IMG/VR virus record: IMGVR_UViG_3300031918_000005
Location: 103,486 to 167,485 of that record
Origin: a virus
DNA: 64,000 bases
Strand: one strand, 5' to 3'
The notes below the pieces were generated by a model, which saw only the letters and a list, made by a program, of their open reading frames with translations, was not told the DNA's origin and did not search any database. Below, piece by piece: positions 3,392 through 52,854 of the stretch (its first letter is position 1; the number at the start of each line of letters is the position of its first letter). The translations under genes were made by a program, and so were the position numbers.

Positions 3392-4066
3392 TCAACCTTT
3401 AGTTTTTTTATTTATTTTATAAATTGTTTTGTGTAACCAATATTCAAGTTTTGTTAGTAATGATTTCGATTCCATATTTTTATAATACAATTCAAAAATA
3501 GATATCTTCTCAAATTCCGATATTTGTGTGTTGAGTATGTCAACATCTGTATCATATGTTACACAATTATGAACCAACAATCCATCAGCAATAAACATAT
3601 GAAGCTTATCATCAATTGTTATGTCAAATACTTTATGTTTACCATTCAATAATTCAACTGATTCAATAATATCAAATTTACCTTCGGCATCGGTAAGACA
3701 ATATTCATTCATTACACAATCTTCCAAATGGCTTTTCAATCGTTTTGTTGAAAAGTATGTATTTTTAACAACGACTGTATTTCTTACAATACAGCAAGGA
3801 AATATATGGTCTTCAGTAGCTTGTATTATTTTACCAGTTTTAGTGGTTATTTTACACAATTCTTTTTTACCATTATAATGTACATGAGTTATTTTTGAAA
3901 TTCTTGTTTTATCTATATTAACAAAGTAACCAAAGGGTTCTATTTTATAAGACCTTTGGTTACTATATATTATAACATCTTCAATCAAAGATATCAAATA
4001 TATGATAAGCTTAGGGGAAAAATTTTTACACGATGTTTTTTGTAACTTCGACATAATCTTCATCAT
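3392..4066 (-). CDS. Split-intein protein: C-fragment fused directly to an N-fragment
   Basis: 224 residues. Residues about 60-90 carry intein block B (CKITTKTGKIIQATEDHIFP, with TxxH at T84-H87). Residues about 146-167 carry blocks F and G (VFDITIDDKLHMFIADG, then VHN). Cys168 follows at once, and CVTYDTDVDI...ISIFELYYKN is itself a textbook intein block A start (compare CLSYDTEIL of DnaE inteins). The ORF then ends after a helix LLTKLEYWLHKTIYKI. It is therefore an intein C-fragment split between blocks A and B, then HN, then an intein N-fragment, with no host-protein residues between. It overlaps the upstream gene by 41 bp. An alternative reading is that residues 168-224 are an ordinary C-extein. 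Confidence 0.75.
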   Translation of the reverse strand: MMKIMSKLQKTSCKNFSPKLIIYLISLIEDVIIYSNQRSYKIEPFGYFVNIDKTRISKITHVHYNGKKELCKITTKTGKIIQATEDHIFPCCIVRNTVVVKNTYFSTKRLKSHLEDCVMNEYCLTDAEGKFDIIESVELLNGKHKVFDITIDDKLHMFIADGLLVHNCVTYDTDVDILNTQISEFEKISIFELYYKNMESKSLLTKLEYWLHKTIYKINKKTKG

Positions 4067-4522: not shown

Positions 4523-6106
4523 TTAAGTTTTATTTATATTAATATTAATTGATTCAACTGAAAAACCTTCCTCATTATAATAAGCCCTTCTTTCTTTACC
4601 CCATTTATTCATATATGATATGATAGAGTCCATTTTACCAGTGGTCATATTTTGTTTTTTGGTGTTTGTAGTTTCTATAATGTCATATATTGTTGTCATG
4701 TCTTTACCTTCATAAAGACGAGCCAACCTTCCCATTGTTTGGTTATTGGTAGTATTGGATTTAAAAGCTTCGGCATATAATATATTAGCTAGACTTTTGA
4801 TTGATTGGCCAGTAGAGAATGTTGTATAATTAGCAACAAGTATGGAATTACCAGTATCATCTTTTTTGATTTCATCTTTATATATTTCCCTAAAATTTGT
4901 TTCTACATCACCATCAATATAATATATTTTTTTACCAAGATTATGGTAAATATTAAGCTCTCTAAGTCTTTCTGATATTTGTTTACCATATTCGCCTTTT
5001 TTATCTGTGAAATAAACAAGTGTATTACCTTTTAGTTGACTTATGAGTTGACATTTCCATTCAAAAAGTCTTTTATGTGACCTTATGAATTGTTGTTCAT
5101 ATCTCAATTTCTTTTCGGGGTCATCTATATAGTCCTTATCAATAGCAAGCTGTAATTTCTCTTTGTCAGTTGCGAAGTCAACAGTTATTTGTTTTACTCT
5201 ACAATCTGTTGTCGCACCAACATCAACCAAAGACTTCTTAGATATTACCTGAACAATTGGTCCAAAATTATCTTCATTAGTAAAATGGTCTGAAGTATCA
5301 CCAATTTTTGGATGTGAACCTGATAAACCTATCAGATTATTAACAACACCACAATTTTTAATTATATTTTTTATGGATGAAGAAACCGACCTATGTGATT
5401 CATCACACATTATAGTATCAAATTTTGATAAAAATTTATCATCATAATTAACAAGTGTAGAAAAATTACCAATTATATGATCAAATTTTTCTATATTTTT
5501 TCTATCTTTGGATTCACCATATGCCATACCAAGCTTTAAATTATATTTCCCATTTGAATATTCGGAAAACTCTTGGAATGTCTGTATAACAAGTGCAGGG
5601 TCGGGTTCTATTATAAGAACATGCTTAGATTGATTTGTATATCTAAGTAACATCAATAACAAATACATAATAAGTGTTTTACCACCACCAGTACCAACAT
5701 CAATTCTGCCAAATCTATATTTGAATGCGTTATAAACTGATTCAACCTGATAATCATATGGAGTTATGTCTTCAAGCTCTTCTGTCATATTATAGCAGAA
5801 GCTTTTAACTTGTTCATATGTTATTTTTTCTCTTAGGAAACTATCAAAGTTTTGAAAGCTAATAGGAAATCCAAATCTTTTACACATAGTAATAAGATTA
5901 GACCATTGAGTTGATCTAATCTTATCAGGTGATATCATATAATCAACAATACCTTTCCATCCCTTACCTTTAGCACCCATTTTTTTCTGAAGGATATAAA
6001 AATTTTCAACCTTTTTTCTGAAATAAATAGCAGTTTGAAGTTGTTCTGCTTCAGAATTATAAAATAATATTAAATATTGTTTATCTTCAGTTAATTTTGC
6101 TATCAT
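4523..6106 (-). CDS. uvsW: UvsW-like superfamily 2 DNA helicase
   Basis: 527 residues. An N-terminal region of about 110 residues precedes a Q-motif-like YDYQ (residues 117-120). Then come Walker A GTGGGKT (138-144), a DESH box at 235-238, and GLSGSHPK as motif III. The second RecA-like domain includes TLVYFTDKKGEYG, ILVANYTTFSTGQSIKS and QTMGRLARLYEGKD (motif VI with the arginine finger). T4 UvsW unwinds branched intermediates and R-loops during recombination-dependent replication; the domain order and length (T4 about 500) fit. It is the last large gene of the operon headed by the gp46-like gene and overlaps the membrane-protein gene upstream by 4 bp. Confidence 0.85.
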   Translation of the reverse strand: MIAKLTEDKQYLILFYNSEAEQLQTAIYFRKKVENFYILQKKMGAKGKGWKGIVDYMISPDKIRSTQWSNLITMCKRFGFPISFQNFDSFLREKITYEQVKSFCYNMTEELEDITPYDYQVESVYNAFKYRFGRIDVGTGGGKTLIMYLLLMLLRYTNQSKHVLIIEPDPALVIQTFQEFSEYSNGKYNLKLGMAYGESKDRKNIEKFDHIIGNFSTLVNYDDKFLSKFDTIMCDESHRSVSSSIKNIIKNCGVVNNLIGLSGSHPKIGDTSDHFTNEDNFGPIVQVISKKSLVDVGATTDCRVKQITVDFATDKEKLQLAIDKDYIDDPEKKLRYEQQFIRSHKRLFEWKCQLISQLKGNTLVYFTDKKGEYGKQISERLRELNIYHNLGKKIYYIDGDVETNFREIYKDEIKKDDTGNSILVANYTTFSTGQSIKSLANILYAEAFKSNTTNNQTMGRLARLYEGKDMTTIYDIIETTNTKKQNMTTGKMDSIISYMNKWGKERRAYYNEEGFSVESINININKT

Positions 6107-17789: not shown

Positions 17790-19142
17790 ATGAGCAAGTT
17801 AGACAACATTTCTCCGATAGATAGTAGATATAACAAACAACACATCATAAGAAATTTATGCTCTTATAAAAACCAACTACAGTCAAAGGTGACAGTTGAA
17901 CTTAGTTGGTTTTTCCATTTATGTAAAGAATATGGATTTGAAATAAAAGATGGTGAATTTATTGAATTAACAAATCGTTCAGTTAATGAAATTAATCATG
18001 TTATTGAAATTGAAAAATCAACTAAACATGATATAAAAGCCATTGAATATTATATTCGTGAAATCGTATTTACATCTGAATTCTTTAATAGACACACAGA
18101 AGAAGAAAAGGTAAAAATTTTAAATCTTATACATTTTGGTCTTACAAGCCAAGATATAGTTAGTTTAGCAACAAATTTATTGTTTTATAAAATATCTCAA
18201 GTTTTCATATGTGGTATAAATGATGTTATATCACATATGAAAACGATATTTTCCGAAAACAATGTTTTGATGGTTGGTTATACTCATGGTCAACCAGCAA
18301 TACCAATTAATTCCAGTCTTATATATCATAATTATCGTGAAAGACTGGAAGCATTAATTACAAAACTTGAAAATATACAACCGAGAGCAAAATTTGGTGG
18401 AGCTATTGGTGATAATTCTTCTTTAAAGCTTGTTGGTGTTATTGATATTGAGGAAATTATGGATTCATTCATTAATGAATATGATTATTCCAAAAATTTT
18501 ATCCGCTCAAAAAACACAACACAAATAGATAATTGGGTATATCTTGTTGATTTATTGAAAGAATATCTTCAAATATCTTCAATATTTATTGATTTATGTC
18601 GTGATATTTGGCATTATTGTTCAATAAATTATTTGGTACAAAAGAAAGATGATAAACAAATAGGTTCATCAACTATGGTTCAAAAAACCAATCCAATAAA
18701 TTTTGAAAATTGTGAAGGTATAATGGAAAAATTGGAATCTGATTTTTCATTTTATATTAAGAAATTTTCAAAATCTAGATTACAAAGAGATTTATCCGAT
18801 TCTGTTGTAATCAGAATGGTTTTTGAAAGTTTCGCAATGTTCAATACTGGTATGATTTCATTTTCTAGAGGATTATCCAATATTGAATTTAACACCGAAA
18901 AAATAACTTCTGAATTGAACAATCATTATGAAATATCAACAGAATATATTCAATTATTTTTAAAATATAACGGTGTTGATATGGCTTACGAGCTTGTTAA
19001 AGAAAAACTTGAAATTATACCTTTGACAAATCGTGAAAGTTATGTTAAATTTATTGATTCTCTTATTGATGAGAGAATCATAACTGAAGAAATGTATTAT
19101 GAAATGATGGAATTTAATTTATCACATTATAAAAACTCATGA
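17790..19142 (+). CDS. purB: Adenylosuccinate lyase (PurB-type)
   Basis: 450 residues, close in order and length to bacterial PurB. Visible are ISPIDSRY at the start, STKHDIKAIEYYI (PurB TNHDVKAVEYF), FGLTSQDI, THGQPA (catalytic His), TTQIDNWVYLVDLL, RDIWHYCSIN, and the mobile loop GSSTMVQKTNPINFEN carrying the catalytic Ser. The usual MPHKVNP reads MVQKTNP, with the Lys and Asn kept. The family removes fumarate from (S)AMP and SAICAR. Phages that make 2-aminoadenine normally borrow host PurB for dSMP, so a phage copy together with a PurZ-like gene 4 kb away suggests a dedicated step (inference). It starts 7 bp after the membrane-protein gene. Confidence 0.9.
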   Translation: MSKLDNISPIDSRYNKQHIIRNLCSYKNQLQSKVTVELSWFFHLCKEYGFEIKDGEFIELTNRSVNEINHVIEIEKSTKHDIKAIEYYIREIVFTSEFFNRHTEEEKVKILNLIHFGLTSQDIVSLATNLLFYKISQVFICGINDVISHMKTIFSENNVLMVGYTHGQPAIPINSSLIYHNYRERLEALITKLENIQPRAKFGGAIGDNSSLKLVGVIDIEEIMDSFINEYDYSKNFIRSKNTTQIDNWVYLVDLLKEYLQISSIFIDLCRDIWHYCSINYLVQKKDDKQIGSSTMVQKTNPINFENCEGIMEKLESDFSFYIKKFSKSRLQRDLSDSVVIRMVFESFAMFNTGMISFSRGLSNIEFNTEKITSELNNHYEISTEYIQLFLKYNGVDMAYELVKEKLEIIPLTNRESYVKFIDSLIDERIITEEMYYEMMEFNLSHYKNS

Positions 19143-21967: not shown

Positions 21968-23368
21968 ATGAAACATTCACAAACGACTTTTAATTATTTC
22001 TTTGCAGAAGGAAAAATAAGTTTCTTACTTGATGGGTTTGCAGGCTCGAGTGGTAAAGGACTTTTATCATCTAACATTGTTAAAAATAGCACAAATTGTA
22101 ATTTTGCTATTTCAACAAATGGTCAAAATGCATCACATTATTATGAGGAAAAATTTCCTGATGGTTCTGAAAAAATCATTTTGTTCAAAGTACTTCCAAC
22201 ATCTTCTGTTTATCATAAAAAGCTTGATGCCGTTTATGTGTGTCAAGGAGCAGCATTTGAACCAAAAAGACTTCTTGAGGAAATAGAACTTACTGGTATT
22301 CCAAGACATAAAGTGAGAATTCATTATAAAGCTGGTATTATATCTCAACAAGACAGAGATTTTGAATCTGGTGTTTGTGATTATGAAGGTAATATTAATA
22401 AAGAACGACAAAAGGGTACTGTAACTTCGGGTACTACAGCAAGTGGTGCTGGTGCTGTTCGTGCTAAAAAATGTATGCGTAATCCAGACCAAAAAATTTA
22501 CGCTTATGAATACCCTGAATTACAGGAGTTTTTATGTGATACGGAAAGAGAAATCATGTATAGACTTGATTCAGGCCAATCTGGTCTTTTCGAAATCGCT
22601 CAAGGTTTTGCACTTTCTTATGGTTTATCATACAGCAAAAGAAATACAACTGCTCGAAACTGCTCGATAACTGCTGCTATCGATGATGCTATGATTGCAC
22701 CTTTTTATATTGGTAATGTTTTTATTAATTTAAGAACACATCCTATCAAGATAAACAATATGAAATGGGTATTGAAAGGTGATGTTCCATATTATGTAAC
22801 TGCTGAATTATCTTTAGCTGAAGCTAAAGCAAGATTCGAAGAAAGACTTTTCAATTTTGTTGATAACGGTATAGTAATAACAGTTATTACTAAAAAAGAT
22901 ATATTTTTAACTGGTTTTGATTTAGAAAAATATCCCGAAATACCATATGAAGTTGTTGATTCTTATTCAGGTGATTGGTATCGTAATGGTTGGGAAAAAC
23001 CTGAAACACAAGAAGAATTGACTTGGGAACAAGTTGAGGAACAATATGGTGATAAAATAAACAAAAAAGCTATTTATACATCACTTACATTAATGCCAAG
23101 AAGAGTTGGAAGCTTTTCTACAGAACTCCTTGAAGATTCAATTAGATACAATATGCCACCAAGTGGTTACAAGGTTTATCTTTCATTAAATTTCTGTAAC
23201 TGGCTTGATAAAGAAATTGAAGGCAAAACAGAAGTTCAAGATATAACAGAAAAAGTTGAAAATTGGATTAATAAAAATATTGATTCTGTTGTTTTAAATT
23301 TTAAAGGTAGTGTAAAACTTGCTATACTTGGAACTGGTAAATGGGTTGATGAATTTATCCAAGTATAA
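21968..23368 (+). CDS. purZ: PurZ-like (2-aminoadenylosuccinate) / PurA-family synthetase
   Basis: 466 residues. The PurA P-loop WGDEGKGK reads FAGSSGKG, so the catalytic Asp13 (E. coli numbering) is Ser and Glu14 is Ser. Other PurA elements remain: GQNASHYYE (GHNAGH, with N38 and H41 kept), TSGTTASGAGAVRAKK (GTTGRGIGPAYEDK), FEIAQGFALSYG (FEGAQG), KRNTTARN (SSNTTAGG), MPRRVGSFS (TGRRRRTGWLD loop), NFCNWLD and GTGKW. As I recall, loss of this Asp to Ser is the hallmark of viral PurZ, which joins aspartate to the 2-amino purine dGMP and needs no base to activate IMP. A plain adenylosuccinate synthetase for AMP is the alternative but would lack its base. Confidence 0.8.
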   Translation: MKHSQTTFNYFFAEGKISFLLDGFAGSSGKGLLSSNIVKNSTNCNFAISTNGQNASHYYEEKFPDGSEKIILFKVLPTSSVYHKKLDAVYVCQGAAFEPKRLLEEIELTGIPRHKVRIHYKAGIISQQDRDFESGVCDYEGNINKERQKGTVTSGTTASGAGAVRAKKCMRNPDQKIYAYEYPELQEFLCDTEREIMYRLDSGQSGLFEIAQGFALSYGLSYSKRNTTARNCSITAAIDDAMIAPFYIGNVFINLRTHPIKINNMKWVLKGDVPYYVTAELSLAEAKARFEERLFNFVDNGIVITVITKKDIFLTGFDLEKYPEIPYEVVDSYSGDWYRNGWEKPETQEELTWEQVEEQYGDKINKKAIYTSLTLMPRRVGSFSTELLEDSIRYNMPPSGYKVYLSLNFCNWLDKEIEGKTEVQDITEKVENWINKNIDSVVLNFKGSVKLAILGTGKWVDEFIQV

Positions 23369-25364: not shown

Positions 25365-25745
25365 ATGAATATTGGTGTGGATTTTGATGGAACATGTGTA
25401 ACACATGAATTTCCAAAAATTGGAGAAAATATTGGTGCTGTCCCAGTACTTAAAAAAATTATTAAATCTGGACATAATATAATACTTAATACTATGCGAA
25501 GCGATATATGTAATTTGCAAGAAGCCATAGATTGGTTCGCTTCTAATGGTATTAAATTGTATGGTATTAATGAAAATCCTAGACAAAAATCTTGGACTAC
25601 AAGCCCTAAAGTATATGCTGATTTATATATAGATGATGCTGCTATTGGGTGTCCACTTCTATTTGATATTAATATATCTACAAGACCTTATGTTGATTGG
25701 GTAAGAATAGAGAAAGCACTTATAGACTGTAAAATCATAAGATGA
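25365..25745 (+). CDS. HAD-superfamily hydrolase-like protein
   Basis: 126 residues beginning MNIGVDFDGTCVTHEFPKIG. DFDGT is HAD motif I with both catalytic Asp residues. IILNTMRS gives the motif II position, and YADLYIDDAAIG is the motif IV acidic pair. The length and the DFDGTCVTHEFP...GAVPVLK start match the small BT0820-like HAD proteins common in Bacteroidota and their phages. The substrate cannot be predicted. Its stop overlaps the start of the terminase gene by 4 bp. Confidence 0.75.
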   Translation: MNIGVDFDGTCVTHEFPKIGENIGAVPVLKKIIKSGHNIILNTMRSDICNLQEAIDWFASNGIKLYGINENPRQKSWTTSPKVYADLYIDDAAIGCPLLFDINISTRPYVDWVRIEKALIDCKIIR

Positions 25746-26818
25746 TGGTTAAATTTCTTAAGATAATATTAAAAATTGTTATATATTTTAATCATAAACT
25801 TTGGAAATATAAAGTTGATGAAGATTGTATAATTAATTCTGTTGTTCCTAAAAACAACACGCTTATAGGTGGTGTTAAAGGAAGCCAACACTTATCTGCT
25901 GTTCATATAAAAACCAATTCAGAAATACTTAAGATAACAACTAAAAACGGTTGTTGTGTTAAATGTTCAATAAACCATTTATTTTATGATTCCAACATGC
26001 AAATTGTTGAGGCTAAAAATATCACAAGACAAACATTCTTGGTAACAAAATATGGTTTATCAAGAGTTGTTATGATTCAAAAATTACCAAGAGAATTTAC
26101 ATTTGATGTTACAATAGGTTCGGGTGAAATGAGTTATTTTTCGAATGATATATTGAGCCATAATTCAATTATATCAGGTATTTTCATAATGTGGTATCTT
26201 CTTACAAATTACGATAAGGGTGTGGCCTGTACTTCTGCAACCGATGATAAAGTAAAAGAACTTATTGAAAAAATAGAAACGGTATATGATAACTTACCGT
26301 TTTATATGAAACTTGGTATATGTACAGATAACCAAAAAAGGAAAGTGTATGATAATGGTTGCTCTATAAAGGGTGAAACTGCAACGGAAAAAGCTGGAGC
26401 TGGATTAACAGTTAATGGTATACTTTATTGTGATGAGTTTGCGTTAATTGACCCAACAGTACTGAAGGTATTCTATACAACAATATTTCCAACAATGTCT
26501 TCTTCACAAACAGCAAAAATGATTATAACATCAACTGCAAGGGGAAGAAATTTATTTTGGCAACTTTATACAGATGGACTGCTTGGTAAAAATTATTTTA
26601 ATCCTATTCGTGTTGATTATTTTGAGGTTGAAGGTCGTGATGAAAATTGGAAACAACAAGAAATTGCAAATCTTGGTGGTTCTATTGAATCATTTGAACA
26701 AGAATATGCAAATTCTTTTGATACAAATCAACAATTGCTTTTACCAGCTGATGTAATGAAAGTTATGAAATCATATCAATCACATTTCAAAAATAATTGT
26801 TTATCACAAGCATCTTGA
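25742..26818 (+). CDS. terL: Terminase large subunit, middle fragment: intein C-fragment + ATPase domain
   Basis: 358 residues. Residues 1-141 are an intein C-fragment lacking block A: block B-like LKITTKNGCCVKCSINHLFY, block F FDVTIGSGEMSYFSNDIL, and the end SHN. Ser142 starts the extein, SIISGIFIMWYLLTN, which aligns just after GK of Walker A (T4 gp17 RQLGKTT-VVAIFLAHFV). Walker B is ILYCDEFALID (D231, E232), and the coupling motif is TSTARGR. The protein stops after FEQEYANSF...KSYQSHFKNN, at the ATPase-nuclease linker. The N-terminal terminase piece with the intein N-fragment is not in this window, and the nuclease domain is at 48269. Splicing in trans is required for a complete ATP site (inference). 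Confidence 0.88.
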   Translation: MMVKFLKIILKIVIYFNHKLWKYKVDEDCIINSVVPKNNTLIGGVKGSQHLSAVHIKTNSEILKITTKNGCCVKCSINHLFYDSNMQIVEAKNITRQTFLVTKYGLSRVVMIQKLPREFTFDVTIGSGEMSYFSNDILSHNSIISGIFIMWYLLTNYDKGVACTSATDDKVKELIEKIETVYDNLPFYMKLGICTDNQKRKVYDNGCSIKGETATEKAGAGLTVNGILYCDEFALIDPTVLKVFYTTIFPTMSSSQTAKMIITSTARGRNLFWQLYTDGLLGKNYFNPIRVDYFEVEGRDENWKQQEIANLGGSIESFEQEYANSFDTNQQLLLPADVMKVMKSYQSHFKNNCLSQAS

Positions 26819-27668: not shown

Positions 27669-28195
27669 TGGTAAGTAATAACTTTCATATCAAGTATAAT
27701 AAAATGTTTATGATATTTTTTATACTTGTTATGTTGGGTTCTCTTGTTTCGGCTTATCACATATTTGAAACAATGTCTATTGGCAATCCAATAATTTTTG
27801 CATTAGCAATAGCTGTTGTTTATGAATTTGCTCAAGTACTAATAGTATTGTTAATACCTCAAATAAAAGATAAAACTAAATCATATGTTTTTTCTGTATT
27901 CGCAATTATAATACTCATACAATTATTTTCCAATATATATTATTCATATAATTTTATCCAATCACATATGGATAAAAACGCTGTTATGTTCAATAATTTT
28001 TATGATATACTGAATATCTTTAGTGAAATAACTGATAAGAAACTTGTTACATTCATATTTGCATCAATTATAGGTATGCCTATTCCTATCATAACATTGC
28101 TACTAGCAAAGATTTTTTCTGATAAAAATGACGAAGATGATGATGTACAGAGTACAGATGAATATTATAAAAAATTAATATCAGAATTGGAATGA
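27668..28195 (+). CDS. Polytopic membrane protein (about four TM)
   Basis: 175 residues. Hydrophobic segments lie at about residues 14-32 (MFMIFFILVMLGSLVSAY), 38-60 (IGNPIIFALAIAVVYEFAQ), 75-97 (YVFSVFAIIILIQLFSNIYY) and 127-148 (LVTFIFASIIGMPIPIITLL). An acidic tail DKNDEDDDVQSTDEYY follows. Its stop overlaps the polymerase start in an ATGA arrangement. A polymerase gene directly coupled to a membrane protein is unusual, but no functional link can be shown from sequence. Confidence 0.5.
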   Translation: MVSNNFHIKYNKMFMIFFILVMLGSLVSAYHIFETMSIGNPIIFALAIAVVYEFAQVLIVLLIPQIKDKTKSYVFSVFAIIILIQLFSNIYYSYNFIQSHMDKNAVMFNNFYDILNIFSEITDKKLVTFIFASIIGMPIPIITLLLAKIFSDKNDEDDDVQSTDEYYKKLISELE

Positions 28196-29673
28196 TAAAT
28201 GCGAAGCAGATTTTTGATAACATGTCTATCTCGTACTTTAATGAAGATGGTATAATTGAAATAATGAATTTACCAATTTCTGATAATGAAAAATTTATAT
28301 GGGAAGAAACTACAGAAGAAGATAGATATAAGCATAATGTTATTACTTCTCAATTTGATAGACCAGTAAAAAGAATAAGGAAAAATTATTTGTCAAAATA
28401 CAGACAGATAGAATATATCAATAACTTACCACAAGAACTTAAAGACAAAATATTTTCAGATAATAAACCGAAAAAATGGTTTTGGGATATTGAAACTGAA
28501 ATCATAGATGGTGTATTCCCTGATGCATCAAATCCTATAGGAAAAATTTTACTCCATACAATATGTGATGAATTCGGCAATGGAACTATATTTGGTCTAA
28601 AACCGATGACTGGTGAAGAGCTTAAACGTATTGAAATTGACTTAATCAATCACTTATCCAAAGTTAAGGATAAGAAATTGATTAAGAAGGTTAATCTTCA
28701 ATATCGCCAATATGCCGATGAATATTCCATGAATCATGATTTCATTTCAAATTACATGATAAAGTTTCCTATAACTTTTGGTTGGAATGTTTTGAAATTT
28801 GATGCTCAATATTTTTTCAATAGATGCAAAAAACTTGGAATCGATTATGTTAAAATCCTTTCTCCAGTTCATAAATCTTTTTCACATTCTTTATCTGATA
28901 AGTACAATAAAGAAAATAAAATACTACTTGATTTACCGCTTCATAGACCTATAATTGACTACATGCAGATTTTTGAATTTTTCGACCAATCTGTAAAGTA
29001 TAAAACATCAATGTCGCTTGGATTTATATCTGAAGAAGTACTTGGAGTTACCAAAGTTGAATATTCTGGTAATTTACAAACACTATATGAAAAAGATTTT
29101 CCTAAATTCTGTTTCTATGGTATAGTTGATGCATTTCTTGTGCAAATGATTGATGAAAAAACCGATATTTATTCACTTATGCAATCAATTACCAACATTG
29201 GTAAAGTTGAATTATTATTTGGCACATCGGTTTCTATAATTATTGAATCTTTGTTTAGTGACTATTATTATAGAGTGTATAACAAAGTGTTTATCAAAAA
29301 AGAGAATGTTCATGAAGGATATGATGGTGCTTTTGTAATAGACCCTATTGTTGGGCTTTACGAATATATTGGGATTTATGACTTTGAAAGTCTATATCCT
29401 TCAATCATGCAATTCCTCAATATTGGTCTTGATACATTTGTTGGTCAAACCTATGGTGGAGATAAAACAACTGTAATTACTAACACTGGTGAACAAATGC
29501 CATTTGATAAAGCTACTATGATTAGAGCCAATAATGGTGTTGTTTATACAAACAAAATTGAAGGATGCGTGAGAACATCCATTAATGAATTATTCACAAG
29601 GCGTGTAAATGCTAAATATGCCAATAATGATATTGGTAATGAAGTGGAGCAACTCAAAAAACTATTAATATAA
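28192..29673 (+). CDS. 43: Family-B DNA polymerase, N-terminal part (exonuclease + motif A)
   Basis: 493 residues. The 3'-5' exonuclease motifs are WDIETE (D99, E101), FGWNVLKFDAQ (N199, D204) and YGIVD (Y309, D313). Polymerase motif A is DFESLYPSIMQFL (397-409). The protein ends RRVNAKYANNDIGNEVEQLKKLLI and stops, exactly where family-B enzymes continue into motif B (K-x-x-x-N-S-x-Y-G). Motif C (YGDTDS) is absent from the window. So the gene is split, and the C-terminal palm and thumb must be supplied by another gene; no intein N-fragment is attached. It is followed 6 bp later by groES. Confidence 0.9.
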   Translation: MINAKQIFDNMSISYFNEDGIIEIMNLPISDNEKFIWEETTEEDRYKHNVITSQFDRPVKRIRKNYLSKYRQIEYINNLPQELKDKIFSDNKPKKWFWDIETEIIDGVFPDASNPIGKILLHTICDEFGNGTIFGLKPMTGEELKRIEIDLINHLSKVKDKKLIKKVNLQYRQYADEYSMNHDFISNYMIKFPITFGWNVLKFDAQYFFNRCKKLGIDYVKILSPVHKSFSHSLSDKYNKENKILLDLPLHRPIIDYMQIFEFFDQSVKYKTSMSLGFISEEVLGVTKVEYSGNLQTLYEKDFPKFCFYGIVDAFLVQMIDEKTDIYSLMQSITNIGKVELLFGTSVSIIIESLFSDYYYRVYNKVFIKKENVHEGYDGAFVIDPIVGLYEYIGIYDFESLYPSIMQFLNIGLDTFVGQTYGGDKTTVITNTGEQMPFDKATMIRANNGVVYTNKIEGCVRTSINELFTRRVNAKYANNDIGNEVEQLKKLLI

Positions 29674-37126: not shown

Positions 37127-38158
37127 ATGTTTGCAGAACTTCATACTCATTTAGGTGGTGCTACATCACCTCAAACTTTATTTTCAATAGCTTACGATAG
37201 AGGTTTTAATATAAAAAGGTTTTCCAATTATGAAAATTTTTCAAACTTAATTCGTAATGGTATTGATAGTCGAGCAATTAGAAGAGGTAATGAATTTACT
37301 GAATATCTTGATAGATATAAGATGATTCAGGAAATATGTTCTTATCCACAGTCAATACAAGAATCTGTTTATAAAGTACTTGAAGACTTATACATAAATC
37401 ATAATTACAGACTTGTTGAATTGAAATTCAATCCAGCATTGAGAAATCAAAAAGGATTATATGACCTTGATTCTATAATATTGTCCGCATGTAATGGTAT
37501 TCAAAAAGCCAAAAATATATTCAAAGATTTGGAATGTGGTATAATAATTGAATCAGACCAATCATTCCCACTTAAGCTTACTCAAATTATTTTTGAGAAA
37601 GCTGTTAAATTTAAGAATTTTGGTGTAATTGGTGTCGATATTTCAGGATTTTATGGTGATTATTCACATAATCTCTATGGTGGTTTTTATAAGGAAGTAT
37701 TCAAATATGTTAAAGATAACGGATTAAAGATAACTTTACATCTTGGTGAAACACTTGTTGACGTGCCGAAGGAATCAGAAAGAAAATCACTTGAAGATTT
37801 TAAATCTATAATTGAACAAGTTGATAGAATAGGTCATGGTGTTCAGTTTTTATTATATTCTAAATTTGCCACTGATTTAATAAGAGCGTTAAAAATTCCA
37901 ATAGAATTTTGCCCAAATTCAAATTTAAAAACAAAGGTTATAAATCAGGAAGAAATAGAAACTGTTGTTACAAAAGCACATTATAACGATATTGATATAG
38001 TTTTGTGTACCGATGGTCATGTTTTCAATGGAAATTTTGAAGACAATCTCAAGACAATACAACACTGTGTGAAGGATAAAGACATTTTTGAAGTATTCAA
38101 AAATTCGGTATCAAATTTTGATAGAACTAAAAAACATTCATTCATTAATATTTTATAG
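37127..38158 (+). CDS. Adenosine deaminase-family protein
   Basis: 343 residues, the usual ADA length. Metal and catalytic motifs are present: ELHTHLGGA (H6, H8), ITLHLGE (ADA H-A-G-E, with catalytic Glu and metal His), RIGHGV, EFCPNSNLKT, and VLCTDGHVF for the usual TDDP-x-V-F. The first Asp of that last motif (metal and water) is kept, while the second (ADA Asp296, which holds purine N7) is Gly. The family hydrolyses the 6-amino group of adenosine or related nucleosides or nucleotides. The change points to an altered substrate. It sits directly before a guanylate-kinase-like gene (1 bp gap), which suggests a shared role in the purine pool. Confidence 0.85.
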   Translation: MFAELHTHLGGATSPQTLFSIAYDRGFNIKRFSNYENFSNLIRNGIDSRAIRRGNEFTEYLDRYKMIQEICSYPQSIQESVYKVLEDLYINHNYRLVELKFNPALRNQKGLYDLDSIILSACNGIQKAKNIFKDLECGIIIESDQSFPLKLTQIIFEKAVKFKNFGVIGVDISGFYGDYSHNLYGGFYKEVFKYVKDNGLKITLHLGETLVDVPKESERKSLEDFKSIIEQVDRIGHGVQFLLYSKFATDLIRALKIPIEFCPNSNLKTKVINQEEIETVVTKAHYNDIDIVLCTDGHVFNGNFEDNLKTIQHCVKDKDIFEVFKNSVSNFDRTKKHSFINIL

Positions 38159-38159
38159 C

Positions 38160-38648
38160 ATGTTTGGTAAAAAAATTATATTGGTAGGTGCTGGAGCATC
38201 AGGAAAAGATTATTTCAGACAGAACTTCCAAAAACATTTAGGATTGAAATTTAGTTTATCATGTACCACAAGAGAACCAAGAGAAGGTGAAATTGATGGT
38301 AAGGACTATAAATTTATACCAAAAGAAATGTTTGAAAGCTTTATTAAATTTGGTAATATGCTTCAATATGCTGAATTTAATGGAGAATTTTATGGTACTA
38401 CAAAAGATGACTTCAACGAATGTGATTTATTCATAATGTCACCTGATGGCATTGCACAAATGTCACCTGAAGATAGAAAACTTTGTTCTGTCGTGTTTAT
38501 ATTTGCTGATGCTGCTGTAACATATGACAGATTTTTACAAAGAGGATTCAGTGAATTACAAATCGGTCAAAGACTTGTTGCTGATGAAAAATTGTTTAGT
38601 GGATTTAACAACTATGACTATATAATTGTTAATAACTTTAAAGGTTAG
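38160..38648 (+). CDS. gmk: Guanylate kinase-like protein
   Basis: 162 residues from the ATG at 38160, one base after the ADA-like stop. The P-loop region is LVGAGASGKDYF, with Asp17 where kinases have Ser or Thr. The GMP-binding segment is SCTTREPREGEIDGKDYKF (Gmk STTTRPPRPGEVDGVDYHF), followed by YAEFNGEFYGTTKDDF (YAEVFGNYYGTS). The lid region is short and the protein is about 45 residues shorter than bacterial Gmk. Guanylate kinase is also the enzyme that phosphorylates dZMP in 2-aminoadenine phages. The odd P-loop residue leaves catalytic competence uncertain. Confidence 0.78.
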   Translation: MFGKKIILVGAGASGKDYFRQNFQKHLGLKFSLSCTTREPREGEIDGKDYKFIPKEMFESFIKFGNMLQYAEFNGEFYGTTKDDFNECDLFIMSPDGIAQMSPEDRKLCSVVFIFADAAVTYDRFLQRGFSELQIGQRLVADEKLFSGFNNYDYIIVNNFKG

Positions 38649-43630: not shown

Positions 43631-43650
43631 TCATTAACTCAATTTAAAAT

Positions 43651-43686
43651 AGAAAAAGCCAAGAGAGTGATCTCTTGGCTTTTTCT
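43651..43686 (+). terminator. Terminator before the MazG-like gene
   Basis: A perfect 16-bp stem (AGAAAAAGCCAAGAGA and complement) has the loop GTGA, and TTTTTCT forms the descending arm. The symmetrical A/T ends would allow function in both directions. Confidence 0.85.
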
Positions 43687-43713
43687 ATTGTGATTATTTA
43701 TATTCTATCATCA

Positions 43714-43734: not shown

Positions 43735-44355
43735 ATGAAAGTAACAGTTAATAGTATAGAAGAACTTTCAAATGAATTGAATAAATACTCCGATTATAAG
43801 CATTCTAAAAAATTTATGAATAATAAATTTTTTATATTCAAATCAAAAATTTTTGAAAGTTCAACACTTAACATAAAAATCGAATTTGGTAAAACTTTGG
43901 TTAAGGTAATAGAAATACAATCACTTCCTAAAACATACGATTATATCGAAAATTATATAAATTATGTTGGTCAAGAAATAAACAACAACAAATCTGGTAA
44001 TAAAATAATACTTGATTTATTAAATATGTGTATGGGTAATTCAATTGAGGCTAATGAGGTTCTTGGCGTTTTGCAAAAGAATGTATTCTTCGGCAAAGAA
44101 TATGAAAAATGGAAAATGATTGATGAATTATCGGACAACTTATTTTATTTTGTTGGAATTATGCGTTTGATAGGTACTAACTTTGAAGAGGTTATTAATG
44201 CCAATATGATAAAATTGAAATCTAGATATCCTGATGGTAGGAGAAATCTTAGTGTTTTCATTAATAAAAATAAAGAAAAAGAAAAAGTACTAATACAAGA
44301 ATTAATAGATAAAAACGAAAAAAATGGAAAGTCTAAAAATCCTGAAATTCAGTAA
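43735..44355 (+). CDS. mazG: MazG-like nucleotide pyrophosphohydrolase (MazZ candidate)
   Basis: 206 residues from the ATG at 43735 (a TTG at 43675 falls inside the terminator). The MazG core is clear: LLNMCMGNSIEANEVLGVLQKNVFFGKE..., then MIDELSDNLFYFVGIMRLIGTNFEEVINANMIKLKSRYPDGR (cited in parts). It contains the E-x-x-E pair (E-A-N-E) and E-x-x-D (E-L-S-D) that bind Mg. It would hydrolyse a dNTP to dNMP plus PPi. In Z-genome phages the MazZ member makes dGMP for PurZ, and this phage has a PurZ-like gene. Specificity cannot be read from sequence. It is followed, with a 32-bp overlap, by the next gene. Confidence 0.83.
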   Translation: MKVTVNSIEELSNELNKYSDYKHSKKFMNNKFFIFKSKIFESSTLNIKIEFGKTLVKVIEIQSLPKTYDYIENYINYVGQEINNNKSGNKIILDLLNMCMGNSIEANEVLGVLQKNVFFGKEYEKWKMIDELSDNLFYFVGIMRLIGTNFEEVINANMIKLKSRYPDGRRNLSVFINKNKEKEKVLIQELIDKNEKNGKSKNPEIQ

Positions 44356-45154
44356 ACTTAATGTAAAAAGGTTTATTGATTATTTGTCTGATACAAACAT
44401 AAAAGAAAAAGAAACTATTGACTTTGAACAAACAAGATTGGTATGTAAATCTCATAGCGAAATGAAGATGTATATCAAATTTGTTGAGGTTGGTATTGAC
44501 AAATTATTCGGAGAAATCAATCCTTACAAACACCTATATTTTCCATTAAATGATGTCGGTAAACTTATTAAGATTTTTGAATTGTACAATTCTAATAATA
44601 TTGAAACAGTTGATGGTGATATACATTATTATGATGATAATGAAGGTAATCAAGTTGCCACACTTTTTAATATCAAAGCTGGACAGCTGAAAAACAAAAT
44701 AGCTCTTGGTGAGTATGGAAATATTCAATATTTGAAAACTGATATATGGGAAAAAACCATATCAGAAGTTGAAAAATCTTCAATTGTTTTCAAATTATTG
44801 GCTATTGATGTTGATAATTTACTTAAATTATTGGCTATTGATAAGGACACAGCTTTTTTAAATAAAACGAAGGATTTCAACAAATTCGCTGTTAAACCAA
44901 CAAGCAATGGAAAAATATCAATAAATTCATTTGAAGGCAAATGGGAATATTTGATAGAAGATGTTGAGATAATGACAGAAAAGAAAGAAATTTATTTCTT
45001 TGATATAACGCTTAAACTTCTTGATAAAAAAGACCATAAAGTTAGCGTATATCTTTCATCGAGAGGTCTTTATATGGGATACATTGAAGAAATTAAATTA
45101 GAAGAAACTATAAAACCTAAAAAATACTTGGTAAGCTGTGATATCAAACGATGA
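44324..45154 (+). CDS. Unrecognised 276-aa protein in MazG-like operon
   Basis: It starts MESLKILKFSKLNVKRFIDYLSD. It is mixed alpha/beta with two roughly equal halves: IDFEQTRLVCKSHSEMKMYIKF...YKHLYFPLNDVGKLIKIFELYNS, and WEKTISEVEKSSIVFKLLAIDVDNLLKLLAIDKD... A two-domain layout with 'F-P-L-N-D-V-G-K-L-I-K-I-F-E-L' loosely recalls sliding clamps, and a T4-like phage needs one. The resemblance is weak and unverified. It overlaps both neighbours, so expression is coupled. Confidence 0.4.
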   Translation: MESLKILKFSKLNVKRFIDYLSDTNIKEKETIDFEQTRLVCKSHSEMKMYIKFVEVGIDKLFGEINPYKHLYFPLNDVGKLIKIFELYNSNNIETVDGDIHYYDDNEGNQVATLFNIKAGQLKNKIALGEYGNIQYLKTDIWEKTISEVEKSSIVFKLLAIDVDNLLKLLAIDKDTAFLNKTKDFNKFAVKPTSNGKISINSFEGKWEYLIEDVEIMTEKKEIYFFDITLKLLDKKDHKVSVYLSSRGLYMGYIEEIKLEETIKPKKYLVSCDIKR

Positions 45155-45743
45155 AGAAGAAATAATTGATAAAATAGAAAAAATAGAAGATGGCTCTGAA
45201 TACATCATCAACAGCCAATCAACTCTATCTTTTTCTATTGATATTTGTGTGGAAATAGACCAAGAGCTTACAGACCCCGAGGCATATTATAATAATAAAT
45301 TTATATATGAAAGGGTTGTAAAAGCACTCAAGGAAATATCTCACTCAAACGAAAAATATAACTACATAAGAGATTTATCGATTGAATTCATTGAAATAGG
45401 CTCACTTGTTTTGTATTCTGATATTCTGTTTAAGGTTGAATACGTATTCGATGATGATGATACAGTTCTTATACACAATGAAGTTAATGATGAAATTAAG
45501 CTGGTTTATAAGCTTGAGTTAATGCCGAACGATAATGCTTGTAAGAAAATAACAAACAAAGATATACAATTTATATTCAGTGAACTTATATCAAAGTTCA
45601 CAATCAATAGAGATAAAGACGCAATATATGATGTGTTCATGTCATTTTCCAATTACATGAAAATAGATGTAAAGAAAATATATAAATCTCTAGATGATAA
45701 AACACAAAAAATTTTAGTAGCTGCACTTAATAAAAAGATTTGA
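45138..45743 (+). CDS. Hypothetical acidic protein (GTG start)
   Basis: 201 residues. No ATG is available near the N-terminus; a GTG at 45138, overlapping the preceding gene by 17 bp, is the best start. The N-terminal part is acidic (SNDEEEIIDKIEKIEDGSEY). The centre is beta-rich (SLVLYSDILFKVEYVFDDDDTVLIHNEV). The C-terminal 60 residues are helical (IQFIFSELISKFTINRDKDAIYDVFMSFSNY). Its place behind the 276-aa gene would suit a small replication accessory protein, but there is no motif to prove it. Confidence 0.45.
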   Translation: MISNDEEEIIDKIEKIEDGSEYIINSQSTLSFSIDICVEIDQELTDPEAYYNNKFIYERVVKALKEISHSNEKYNYIRDLSIEFIEIGSLVLYSDILFKVEYVFDDDDTVLIHNEVNDEIKLVYKLELMPNDNACKKITNKDIQFIFSELISKFTINRDKDAIYDVFMSFSNYMKIDVKKIYKSLDDKTQKILVAALNKKI

Positions 45744-45748
45744 AAAAA

Positions 45749-46186
45749 ATGGAAAATCAAACTAAGGCTTTTAACGATTTAACACTTAAAATCGTTAAAA
45801 ACAGATGTGAATTGACTGGATTCGATTACAACCCACCGTTTATTGAAGAAATAAAAATAATTGGTGGTCGATTTGACAGTACAAAATTCTTATACTTCTT
45901 CGATGATTTAACACAAAAAACTTATGACAAAATAGTTGAAGTGTGTAATTATTATTTTACTCCTCAAAAACACTATACTTCAGGCCAAAGAAGTCTCGTT
46001 AAAAAAATAAGCACCATATTTGGAGAATGTTCAGGTGACTTTATTTTTAGAAAAGATGATGAAGGACTTTCATTCGTTGATTTGAATCAAGCATGTGGTG
46101 TTCCTAATCAAATAGCAACAGTTCTTAGGAACAATAAAGTCAAGGTTGTTAAAACTACAGAAAGAAGGATTTATATCAGTAATTAA
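45749..46186 (+). CDS. Hypothetical protein, last gene of MazG-like operon
   Basis: 145 residues from the ATG at 45749 (a TTG at 45740 overlaps the preceding stop). It begins MENQTKAFNDLTLKIVKNRC, has a helical middle with FFDDLTQKTYDKIVEVCNYYF, and ends FVDLNQACGVPNQIATVLRNNKVKVVKTTERRIYIS. The last segment looks like a small helix-turn-helix followed by a strand. It is convergent with the virion gene at 46183, overlapping by 4 bp. Not recognised. Confidence 0.5.
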   Translation: MENQTKAFNDLTLKIVKNRCELTGFDYNPPFIEEIKIIGGRFDSTKFLYFFDDLTQKTYDKIVEVCNYYFTPQKHYTSGQRSLVKKISTIFGECSGDFIFRKDDEGLSFVDLNQACGVPNQIATVLRNNKVKVVKTTERRIYISN

Positions 46187-47824: not shown

Positions 47825-48259
47825 ATGCAAGTAAAAATCATTAACAAATCAAAACATGACCTTCCAGAATATACAACAGTGAATTCTGCTGGAATGGATT
47901 TAAGAGCTAATATTGATGGCTTGATTAAATTATCACCTCTTGAAAGAAAACTCATTCCAACTGGATTATTCATTGAATTACCAGTAGGTTTTGAAGCTCA
48001 AATCAGACCAAGAAGTGGTTTAGCACTTAAACTAGGAATAACTGTTTTGAATAGCCCAGGTACTATCGATGCCGATTATCGAGGTGAAATTGGTGTTATT
48101 TTAATCAATCTTTCTTCGGAATCAAGAGTTGTTGCTGATGGTGACCGCATTTGCCAAATGGTTATAGCCAAACATGAACAAGCTGAATGGGAACAAGTTG
48201 AAGTACTTGAAGACACTGAAAGAGGTGCTGGTGGATTTGGTCATACTGGAAAAAAATAA
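47825..48259 (+). CDS. dut: dUTP diphosphatase (trimeric dUTPase)
   Basis: 144 residues with all five motifs in order: [33 protein letters not shown] (catalytic Asp and uracil-pocket Tyr), [22 protein letters not shown]. It hydrolyses dUTP to dUMP, which keeps uracil out of DNA and feeds dTMP synthesis. The length is typical. It lies 9 bp upstream of the terminase nuclease gene, an unusual pairing of an early-type and a packaging function. Confidence 0.97.
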
Positions 48260-48268
48260 AACTTTTAT

Positions 48269-49108
48269 ATGGGTTATTCTGAAACACTTTTGGATTATGA
48301 TATGTATTTATATCTTCATGAATCTATAAACATTTCAAGGTTTCAGGATGAAAGAAGAATGTTTGTACACACAATAGATTTGGCAGAAGGTGCTGGAGGT
48401 GATTATTCAGTTATCAATATATTTGAACTTTTACCAATGACACTTGAGGAAATCGAAAATGTTACATTAATAGAAGATGAATATTCGTTTTTCAAATTGG
48501 TTCAAATAGCAATGTTTAGGTCTAACACAATAATAGTTCCTGATTTAGCAAAATGGTATTATCACTTCTTAGTAGAAGTTTGTATTCCCGACAACACAAA
48601 AATATGTCTCGAAAATAATTACGATGGTAATTATTTTCGAGAAGTGTTGACCAAATTGTATGGTGATGAAAATGAACTTGATGGTGATTTCATGTTCTTT
48701 GTATTTCCATACAATATGAAAGATGACCAGTCTTATGCAGTTAGAATTGGTCTTAGACAATCAGAACACACAAAGAATTTGGGTACTACAATGATGAAAA
48801 CTCAAATGCGACAAAATCAACTTATACTTACCGAATTCATAACAATAGAAGAAGCATTATCTTTTGCAAGGAAGAAAACAAAAGATGGTGGTTTTGGTGG
48901 GTATTGCGCTATGATTGGTAATGATGATTGTATAATGTCTGTAGTTAATATAACGCATATTAGAAAACTTCCTGAATTCCAAGAACTGATTGATGAAGTA
49001 TCCAAATATTGCCCTAAAGAATTTTGGGATGCTATCAGCAAGAAAATGAAAACAATTGCATCTTCAGATTCATCAGGTGATATAACATCAATTTTTGGCG
49101 CAAAGTAA
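48269..49108 (+). CDS. terL: Terminase large subunit, separate nuclease domain
   Basis: 279 residues. It aligns with the C-terminal RNase-H-fold nuclease of T4 gp17: TIDLAEGAGGDYSVINIFEL (D37; gp17 [20 protein letters not shown]), then ICLENNYDGNYF (E115; gp17 VYIELNSTG), then GNDDCIMSVV (D219/D220; gp17 HDDLVMSL). All three acidic catalytic positions are thus present. There is no ATPase domain and no intein sequence. The ATPase part (25742-26818) ends in the same linker where this begins, so the two domains are encoded as separate proteins 21 kb apart and must assemble non-covalently, or be joined by means not visible here. Confidence 0.88.
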   Translation: MGYSETLLDYDMYLYLHESINISRFQDERRMFVHTIDLAEGAGGDYSVINIFELLPMTLEEIENVTLIEDEYSFFKLVQIAMFRSNTIIVPDLAKWYYHFLVEVCIPDNTKICLENNYDGNYFREVLTKLYGDENELDGDFMFFVFPYNMKDDQSYAVRIGLRQSEHTKNLGTTMMKTQMRQNQLILTEFITIEEALSFARKKTKDGGFGGYCAMIGNDDCIMSVVNITHIRKLPEFQELIDEVSKYCPKEFWDAISKKMKTIASSDSSGDITSIFGAK

Positions 49109-50411: not shown

Positions 50412-51767
50412 TTATTCAGCGAAATCTCTTTTATTACAATCTATATTCATTGTGATAATATTTCCTTCTGAAAAAATATATCTGATTTTTGTGGAAATAT
50501 AAAATCCACTAACAAATTTATCAATAACAATATCTTTCTTTAAGGTATCATTATATTTTGTATCATTGTTTTCATCTTCGGGTCTATCATGTAGAAATTT
50601 ATCAACATCTCTATTTTGTATTATTATCGGTATTTGCATAAAACATCTTATGGCTGGATTTATAGCTGTTAATGTTACCGATATTTTGTAATTTGATAAA
50701 CTTGTTATGTTCATTTCATTCAATCCTTTTGCAGCGAAATAATTTTTATGAACATTAACATTGTTTTGTTCCCCAAAATGTATAGTTTTTGTTATTTTGT
50801 CGGAAAGTTCATTTGTTTTATGAGGAGTTTTGTTACCTTCTGTAACTAATGGTTGTATATAAAATTCCTTGAATTCCTCATCGGTTTTTTCATACATTTG
50901 TAAATATAGCTTACTACCAAGACCATTAATAACAGAACCTATATTATTTTTATTCGAATAATCAACTATGAAATTTGCTCTTCCTAAATCATCAATATTA
51001 TGAAGAAAAAAATCTTTTAATTCGCCTTCATCTTCCTGGCCATTCTGAACATCAGCAATGGCCATTTCTTTTATTTCCGTTATCTTCATAAGCTCACCAT
51101 CCGTAACAACCATCTTATTAATTTCCACAAAATTTAGGTAATAATGTTGGTCTATAAACACCTTAAAAAATGAGTTATCATCTTTATAGATTGATGGTAA
51201 TATATCATATTGTATGAAATCTAAGAATGACATTGAAGGACAAACATGGCACATTGAATCATTTGTATACGTTTCGTTTGCTGCATAACCAAGTTTTAAT
51301 TCTTTTGCAACTTTTTTTAGTGTATCAAAACTTGTTAATTTACCAAAACTAATAACCTTTTCATTAAAAAGTTCGGGTAAATTAAGTACAGCAGTTATAT
51401 AAACATAAGTATCTTCTTTTGAAAAAGATGTAATCTTATAATCTTGTCTTATAGGTTTGAATTCCTTATTTTTACTTCTTACAAATAATTTAACAATTGA
51501 ATCTGTTACACCAGCTTGATTTGAAAGTATTCTTTCTTCATCATCTATTGTTAAATTTAATTTAGGTAAAAAATCACCAACTTCTATCGATGAATATTTT
51601 ATGGAATTATGGTCAAAATACTTACCATTTATTTCAACTATTGGAGCGTACAACCCGATAGCCATATTTGGATTTGATTCATCATAACCTTTTTTCTCTT
51701 CTGTATTCGGTACTGAAAGCTCTGAAAGCTCTATTTCGGGATTGAAAATTACTACTATATCTATCAT
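50412..51767 (-). CDS. Baseplate hub protein-like (gp27 / late-control D type)
   Basis: 451 residues. The order resembles hub proteins: an N-terminal strand-rich part with KYSSIEVGDFLPKLNLTIDDEE, then KEDTYVYITAVLNLPELFNEKVISFGKLTSFDTLKKVAKELKLGYAANET (the 'S-x-x-x-x-L-x-x-I-A-x-x-L-x-L' of gpD/gp27), then YDILPSIYKDDNSFFKVFIDQHYYLNFVEINK, and a C-terminal barrel with FVSGFYISTKIRYIFSEGNIITMNIDCNKRD. It is convergent with the tail fibre gene, one base apart, and has a late-type motif upstream. Confidence 0.55.
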   Translation of the reverse strand: MIDIVVIFNPEIELSELSVPNTEEKKGYDESNPNMAIGLYAPIVEINGKYFDHNSIKYSSIEVGDFLPKLNLTIDDEERILSNQAGVTDSIVKLFVRSKNKEFKPIRQDYKITSFSKEDTYVYITAVLNLPELFNEKVISFGKLTSFDTLKKVAKELKLGYAANETYTNDSMCHVCPSMSFLDFIQYDILPSIYKDDNSFFKVFIDQHYYLNFVEINKMVVTDGELMKITEIKEMAIADVQNGQEDEGELKDFFLHNIDDLGRANFIVDYSNKNNIGSVINGLGSKLYLQMYEKTDEEFKEFYIQPLVTEGNKTPHKTNELSDKITKTIHFGEQNNVNVHKNYFAAKGLNEMNITSLSNYKISVTLTAINPAIRCFMQIPIIIQNRDVDKFLHDRPEDENNDTKYNDTLKKDIVIDKFVSGFYISTKIRYIFSEGNIITMNIDCNKRDFAE

Positions 51768-51780
51768 AATCGGATTGTGA

Positions 51781-51793
51781 TTTTATTTATTTA
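51781..51793 (-). promoter_or_regulatory. Candidate late promoter motif (TAAATAAATAAAA)
   Basis: 13 nt before the ATG at 51767 (minus). With the plus-strand copy at 51816 it makes a divergent pair in a 73-bp gap. Confidence 0.5.
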
Positions 51794-51815
51794 TATACTG
51801 GATTTTGTTTTGATT

Positions 51816-51828
51816 TAAATAAATAAAA
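51816..51828 (+). promoter_or_regulatory. Candidate late promoter motif (TAAATAAATAAAA)
   Basis: 12 nt before the ATG at 51841, heading the two-gene unit that ends at the 56240 terminator. Confidence 0.5.
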
Positions 51829-51840
51829 CAAAATTTGATT

Positions 51841-52854
51841 ATGGAAATGATTGAACTTATAAAGGAAAAAATCAAAGAATCTCAATCTTTTGATTTGTTA
51901 CACCAACTCGACTTAAAAATTAAAGATATCAATACTAGTGATAAAGATGTAATACTGCTTGAAGTAATATCTGAAATGTTGGAAGATAATGAAGGTGAAA
52001 AAGGTTCTGTTCTTATTGATAAATTACCAAATTTTTCCGAATATCAACTTGGATTATTGAATGACACCATAAGTTCATGTTGTACTACCAATTTCCAAAC
52101 AAAAGATGAATTAACAAATTTTTTGTTTAACTTCTTTAATACTCAAGAATTACTACATTTCAATATTGATGATTTAACAGATGAAAATATTTATGATTTA
52201 AATAAAATATTTTCAGATTATCAAGAGTCTATTGGTTCTGAAATAACAACCGAAACATTGGCTTTCAATCCAGACCTTGTTGCTCAAATAAGATTTGATG
52301 TTGTTAAATATCTTCAGGACATAAAAAAATTTGATAATAATTTTATTGATAATGTTGAATCTGCAAAGTACACTCGTGATGTTTTCGATGATGAAGATAT
52401 TATACTAGAAGGTGTATCGGGCGATGATAAAATGAAGAAAATAGAAGAAATGGATGATCAATCTATTATTTTTCTTTATGCTTTGTTTAGTGGTGATTAT
52501 ACCAAATCCTATTCTTATTCAATGCGTTCAGAACTTGCTGATGAAGTTATGAAGCACCCCGATGGTAAAATATCACAATATCTTTCTCCAATAACACCTC
52601 AACAACAACAAGAACTTTTTAACAACAACAATACTGAAAAAGTTGATGTTGACCAGTTTTGGAAATCAATGAAAGATAAATATGGAACCCAAATCAATGA
52701 AAATCTTCTTTCATTATATGTGAAATTGTTCCCAATTAATGAATGTAAGAGATTATTGATTTCACTTTCCAATATAAATGTAATAAAAGGTATCAATGAA
52801 AACTATTATATGGTTTCAGGAAAATCTCTTAATAATATAAAACTATTAAAATAA
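51841..52854 (+). CDS. Putative prohead/internal protein with INE motifs
   Basis: 337 residues from the ATG at 51841. It is acidic and helical (IELIKEKIKESQSFDLLHQLDLKIKD). The last 80 residues contain TQINENLLSLYV, PINECKRLLIS and GINENYYMVSGKS, three I-N-E sites resembling the (L/I)-x-E cleavage consensus of T4-type prohead protease. The next gene has many more such sites and is 6 bp away in the same late-type unit. A scaffold or internal head role is inferred. Confidence 0.45.
   Translation: MEMIELIKEKIKESQSFDLLHQLDLKIKDINTSDKDVILLEVISEMLEDNEGEKGSVLIDKLPNFSEYQLGLLNDTISSCCTTNFQTKDELTNFLFNFFNTQELLHFNIDDLTDENIYDLNKIFSDYQESIGSEITTETLAFNPDLVAQIRFDVVKYLQDIKKFDNNFIDNVESAKYTRDVFDDEDIILEGVSGDDKMKKIEEMDDQSIIFLYALFSGDYTKSYSYSMRSELADEVMKHPDGKISQYLSPITPQQQQELFNNNNTEKVDVDQFWKSMKDKYGTQINENLLSLYVKLFPINECKRLLISLSNINVIKGINENYYMVSGKSLNNIKLLK

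Follow-up and report, generated by a model that had tools for sequence, protein, structure and literature searches.

A stand-alone MazG pyrophosphohydrolase as a functional candidate for dGMP supply to a PurZ route in a large contractile-tailed phage

Does a MazG-family gene in a large phage genome supply the dGMP from which a PurZ route would start? The stretch of DNA analyzed here, hereafter the window, is the final 64 kb of virus record G000 (167,485 bases), and coordinates refer to it unless the whole record is named. MazG-family enzymes convert a dNTP and water to the corresponding dNMP and pyrophosphate, using Mg or Mn held by four acidic residues. The first-pass annotation had presented the MazG gene (43735-44355, plus strand) as the MazZ step that completes the upstream, dGTP-consuming part of such a route, on the grounds that PurZ-like and PurB-like genes occur in the same 64 kb. 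Both genes are indeed there, at 21968-23368 and 17790-19142 (both +). Our overall reading, based on sequence comparison, gives about an even chance that the window MazG feeds dGMP made from dGTP into a route formed by PurZ, PurB and guanylate kinase. In this role a functional stand-in for MazZ is plausible, but descent from MazZ, as set out below, did not hold.

About 55 G000 proteins align with those of Flavobacterium phage MaF61, a complete, contractile-tailed isolate of 167,814 bp from a Finnish lake, at roughly 25-40% identity. More distant relatives, judged by tail sheath and capsid, are the Prevotella Lak phages, Tenacibaculum phages PTm1 and pT24, Sphingomonas phage PAU and Chryseobacterium phage MA9V-1. 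From these relatives we infer a Bacteroidota host for G000, an AT-rich phage. The N-terminal part of a family-B DNA polymerase is encoded at 28192-29673 (+); in contrast to the known Z phages, the G000 clade consists of large myoviruses with a polymerase of this family.

The MazG gene encodes 206 amino acids, translated without a stop, and its assignment draws on Pfam, PHROG and orthologue alignments. The program-made open reading frame containing it begins at a TTG at 43675; a terminator-like hairpin (43648-43689, +) covers this codon, so that the ATG at 43735 is the likelier start. Residues 1-65 form a variable extension that lies outside the MazG domain and is poorly conserved; the domain itself spans residues 66-175 approximately, and the remainder is a charged tail. 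That the protein is MazG-like was borne out by Pfam family PF03819, which matches residues 105-167 (E 1.5e-5, 25.6 bits against a curated cut-off of 22), and by phrog_229 'MazG-like pyrophosphatase' (E 1e-20); no NCBIfam model matched. Both metal motifs, reported as intact, are present: E105-A-N-E108 (E-x-x-E; 44047-44058, +) and E131-L-S-D134 (E-x-x-D; 44125-44136, +). Since both orthologues, in records G001 (66-67% identity) and G002 (30-31%), keep these residues unchanged, the PF03819 match exceeds chance. Against the PDB, a single-sequence search gave a thymidine kinase as its sole match, by chance, and a profile search gave weak NTP-PPase/HisE/MazG matches only. Structure prediction recovered the expected helices at a mean pLDDT of 60.5, with no significant Foldseek match, and the two predictions made are too poor for judging specificity. 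On these alignments, the product is predicted to be a MazG-type NTP pyrophosphohydrolase with intact metal residues.

The putative partner of this enzyme is the product of the gene at 21968-23368, a divergent, succinoaminodeoxyadenylate synthetase-like PurZ. Its product scores 26.7 with the Pfam adenylosuccinate synthetase family, slightly under the cut-off of 27, and the PHROG family of PurZ, phrog_1211, gives a match at 1.7e-19. Ser27 replaces the catalytic Asp of PurA: the window protein and four relatives read GSSGKG where two PurA read GDEGKG (Ser at PurA Asp13), and published work reports a Ser here for every phage PurZ looked at (PMC12884076). The window protein also keeps the N-F pair that PurZ has at the adenine site. 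A profile of these five proteins gave 137 bits with phiVC8 PurZ, 105 with S-2L PurZ and 79 with an archaeal PurA. In a phylogenetic tree, the five clade proteins came together (100/100) and, away from PurA, joined the PurZ of Ochrobactrum phage OH (89/90), all of them falling within the set of PurZ proteins (89/87); support for this placement is moderate. The NCBIfam PurZ model gives 75 bits, and an archaeal-type PurA model 83; we call the protein divergent because the former value is far under the PurZ cut-off of 300. Altogether, sequence evidence argues for grouping it with known PurZ rather than with PurA. Bacterial and archaeal genomes scanned with the PurZ alignment yielded no relative, and in the part of the literature covered we found no paper on PurZ in such phages. 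Megaphage LR756501 gave a PurZ-like match that is in fact a true PurA, with GDEGKG, and was therefore counted as PurZ-negative.

Which kind of MazG accompanies this PurZ? We built a domain tree including MazZ-1, MazZ-2 and stand-alone phage MazG proteins; its branches are long and its finer order is unsure. The window protein and its G001 and G002 orthologues join the MazG of S-PM2, S-CAM1, S-SM2, QB2, P11B and PK5.1 (96/96), while MazZ-1 and MazZ-2 fall apart from them. The suggested identity with MazZ was thus contradicted by the tree, and family matches and residues agree. The MazZ of S-2L, SH-Ab 15497 and PMBT28 match PF04447 (MazZ-1; phrog_801) and those of phiVC8 and OH match phrog_9860 (MazZ-2), and PF03819 matches in none of these five known Z phages. 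Conversely, the window MazG has no match to PF04447 even at E 1 and none to phrog_9860, and we rejected both identities. MazZ-1 lies between datZ and purZ; the window MazG is not so placed, and it is not part of a Z-cluster. The S-2L enzyme has in common with the window protein a MazG-like all-alpha pyrophosphohydrolase type and four acidic metal ligands, and it would do the same step, but the two share no Pfam or PHROG family. MazZ-2 of phiVC8 is likewise a small MazG-like protein of a PurZ phage, with no sequence match to ours. We assign the window MazG, on these comparisons, to the stand-alone phage type, of the S-PM2 or 'NTP-PPase_u4' subtype, with an added N-terminal extension. By function it is a candidate for the MazZ step; it does not belong to the MazZ families.

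S-PM2 MazG resembles the window protein in domain subtype, in its metal motifs and in an N-x-x-K-L-x-x-R-Y-P stretch, with 29% identity over 120 amino acids; it differs in coming from outside the PurZ phages, and the N-terminal extension and charged tail of the window protein are unrelated to it. Among its measured substrates, dGTP has the highest kcat and the lowest Km (400 per min, 0.14 mM), against 345 per min and 1.16 mM for dCTP and 63 per min and 1.2 mM for dATP (PMC6850273). The reported guanine contacts of S-2L MazZ, Ile56 and Asp60 (PMC8342488), align with Phe and Gly in the window MazG and with Trp and Gln in S-PM2 MazG. As the latter prefers dGTP even so, the absence of this pair excludes recognition of the MazZ-1 type but not dGTP cutting.

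The position of the gene offers less. It heads a run of four genes, each overlapping the next (43735-46186), and those that follow it encode proteins of unknown function: a 276-residue protein that overlaps the MazG gene end (44324-45154, +), a 201-residue protein with an overlapping start (45138-45743, +) and a 148-residue protein that closes the run (45740-46186, +). This order is kept in G001. In the far more distant G002, MazG and the next gene remain together, so the 276-residue product adjoins a MazG orthologue in both records; it matches no Pfam or NCBIfam family above cut-off, and no relative was found in the phage collection. The hairpin mentioned above, which has a 19-bp stem and resembles an intrinsic terminator, parts the MazG gene from the upstream gene, and purZ lies 20 kb away, past a terminator, in another gene run. 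Between MazG and purZ we found no link stronger than co-residence.

Co-occurrence across genomes was assessed in six PurZ-bearing records of at least 50 kb (G000, G001, G002, G003, G008 and MaF61), which are few and related, and in eight PurZ-lacking relatives. Some MazG-type domain occurs in five of the six, but the orthologue of the window gene in only three (G000, G001 and G002). MaF61, a complete genome, has no orthologue; its ORF62, like the window protein, is a MazG domain in a related PurZ-bearing myovirus, but it belongs to another subtype, carries a long insertion, has some likeness to pT24 and PAU proteins and is not significantly like ours (E 0.011). In G003, a GC-richer and otherwise distant PurZ phage, a MazG-like domain forms residues 422-529 of a 612-residue protein whose gene follows an HD-domain gene (the two together at L102:12470-15257); the N-terminal part of the larger protein is ribbon-helix-helix-like. 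No MazG of any subtype was found in the 110-kb contig G008, perhaps because it is a fragment; it carries PurZ, guanylate kinase, adenosine deaminase and an HD protein. Two of the eight PurZ-lacking relatives (pT24 and LR756501) have a MazG above cut-off and three have weaker matches. Enrichment beside PurZ is not significant (5/6 versus 2/8, Fisher p 0.10; p 0.58 with weak matches included).

These counts bear on the strongest alternative, namely that this is an ordinary phage MazG which recycles or cleans the dNTP pool while host DNA is broken down and has no dedicated tie to PurZ, the dGMP coming from host turnover or other enzymes. We take it seriously, at a probability somewhat short of even. 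The caution in the first-pass annotation that MazG is common in phages and weak evidence alone was well founded: the S-PM2-type subtype occurs in hundreds of phage records, mostly of cyanophages, while our PurZ search matched only 44 records and no cyanomyoviruses. PurZ-less phages thus commonly keep the subtype, although we saw none that keeps the strict orthologue: the orthologue with its neighbor gene appeared only in PurZ-bearing phages. The first-pass annotation had named PurZ-lacking relatives that retain this MazG as refuting its reading; by that standard the subtype counts against the reading and the strict orthologue does not. The separate transcription unit and loose co-occurrence with PurZ also favor an ordinary role, as does the proposal of the S-PM2 authors that their enzyme serves an AT-rich phage by recycling the dGTP and dCTP of the host (PMC6850273), G000 being AT-rich too. 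Set against this, MazG-type domains of three subtypes accompany PurZ in our set. That the window MazG supplies dGMP from dGTP is plausible, at about even chances, and the enzyme may not be dedicated to the task.

Genes for the steps downstream are present as well. Besides the PurB (adenylosuccinate lyase) homologue, the window encodes a guanylate kinase (GMK) homologue at 38160-38648 (+), and MaF61 has relatives of both, at 30% and 38% identity, respectively. The search for PurB turned it up in G000, G001, G002 and MaF61 and in no PurZ-lacking relative out of eight (Fisher p 0.015, counting also the two PurZ records in which no PurB was found). Two further contigs fit the pairing: G009, which carries PurZ, guanylate kinase and a piece of PurB, and G006, which has PurB with a related capsid gene. 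In MaF61 and others, PurB and guanylate kinase travel with PurZ. In the three Z phages with a worked-out pathway, the steps after PurZ are carried out by host enzymes (PMC12884076).

In our preferred reading, that of a MazG feeding PurZ, the window enzyme most likely splits dNTPs into dNMP and pyrophosphate and accepts dGTP as one of its better substrates; the resulting dGMP would be joined to aspartate by the divergent PurZ, phage PurB would release 2-amino-dAMP, and phage guanylate kinase would phosphorylate this product, leaving the final phosphorylation to the host. The series dGTP to dGMP to dSMP to dZMP to dZDP would then proceed on phage enzymes. That all of it may be phage-encoded follows from PurB and guanylate kinase traveling with PurZ; the preference for dGTP, a flux of the MazG product to PurZ and 2-aminoadenine as a base of the phage DNA are presumed from the comparisons above.

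Other nucleotide genes in G000 suggest where a dATP-removing activity might be sought. An HD-domain protein occurs in the three PurZ-bearing phages G000, MaF61 and G008 (5065-5847 of the full G000 record, locus L034; L010:21500-22132; L094:5257-5955). In G000 its best family is deoxyribonucleoside 5'-monophosphatase, and it weakly resembles the dATP triphosphohydrolase family; to judge by these matches, it is a candidate that fits dATP or dAMP removal better than the window MazG. It therefore weighs against a second alternative, in which MazG would mainly lower dATP so that dZTP is used, like DutZ and DUF5664 in PurZ0 phages. The PurZ0-phage enzymes that cut both dATP and dGTP do prefer dATP (PMC12884076), and G000 yielded no clear member of the DatZ family; nevertheless, S-PM2 MazG is poor on dATP (PMC6850273), and we hold this explanation to be very improbable. 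Least credible of all is that the window MazG hydrolyses (p)ppGpp and so damps the host stringent response, a role suggested for the E. coli enzyme and, on one occasion, for cyanophage MazG, since S-PM2 MazG, whose subtype is the nearest among the assayed phage enzymes, shows neither binding nor cleavage of (p)ppGpp (PMC6850273).

The MazG gene alone is ordinary; what deserves attention is the PurZ, PurB and guanylate kinase set in large myoviruses with a family-B polymerase. It is conceivable, if on balance a little doubtful, that these Bacteroidota-type phages are a further 2-aminoadenine lineage which encodes most of the dZTP route (dGMP supply, PurZ, PurB and guanylate kinase) and, for the dGTP step, took unrelated MazG subtypes instead of MazZ. 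If so, 2-aminoadenine DNA would reach contractile-tailed phages of 170 kb that infect a Bacteroidota host, have a polymerase of a different family and carry their own PurB and kinase, and pool enzymes would have been recruited convergently around PurZ in one more case. Because the MaF61 isolate exists in culture, its DNA base composition is directly measurable.

Several further features of the genome were recorded. An adenosine deaminase homologue (37127-38158, +), also present in G001 and G008 and unannotated in MaF61, directly precedes guanylate kinase, as does the one at L094:11115-12116. The dUTPase (47825-48259, +) scores as an ordinary member of its family and passes the NCBIfam cut-off. 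A thymidylate synthase at 74557-75732 of the full G000 record (L037) has 391 amino acids and exceeds the Pfam profile that it spans by about 120 residues. Three pieces, set apart from one another, encode the terminase large subunit, and two encode the family-B DNA polymerase; in both cases all pieces align to a single MaF61 gene (they lie at 25742-26818, 48269-49108 and 28192-29673 of the window and at 88806-90604 of the full G000 record, locus L038). The middle terminase piece begins with an intein-like half (Intein_splicing, E 2.7e-4), and split inteins may therefore rejoin the pieces. Another intein-like reading frame, at 3392-4066 (minus strand), matches Intein_splicing slightly under cut-off (E 1.8e-8) and contains VHN-C, which resembles an intein end. 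Finally, DUF7487 proteins are encoded at 1860-2837 of the window and at 50457-52043 of the full G000 record; relatives of the latter occur in several copies in G002 and are perhaps mobile endonucleases.
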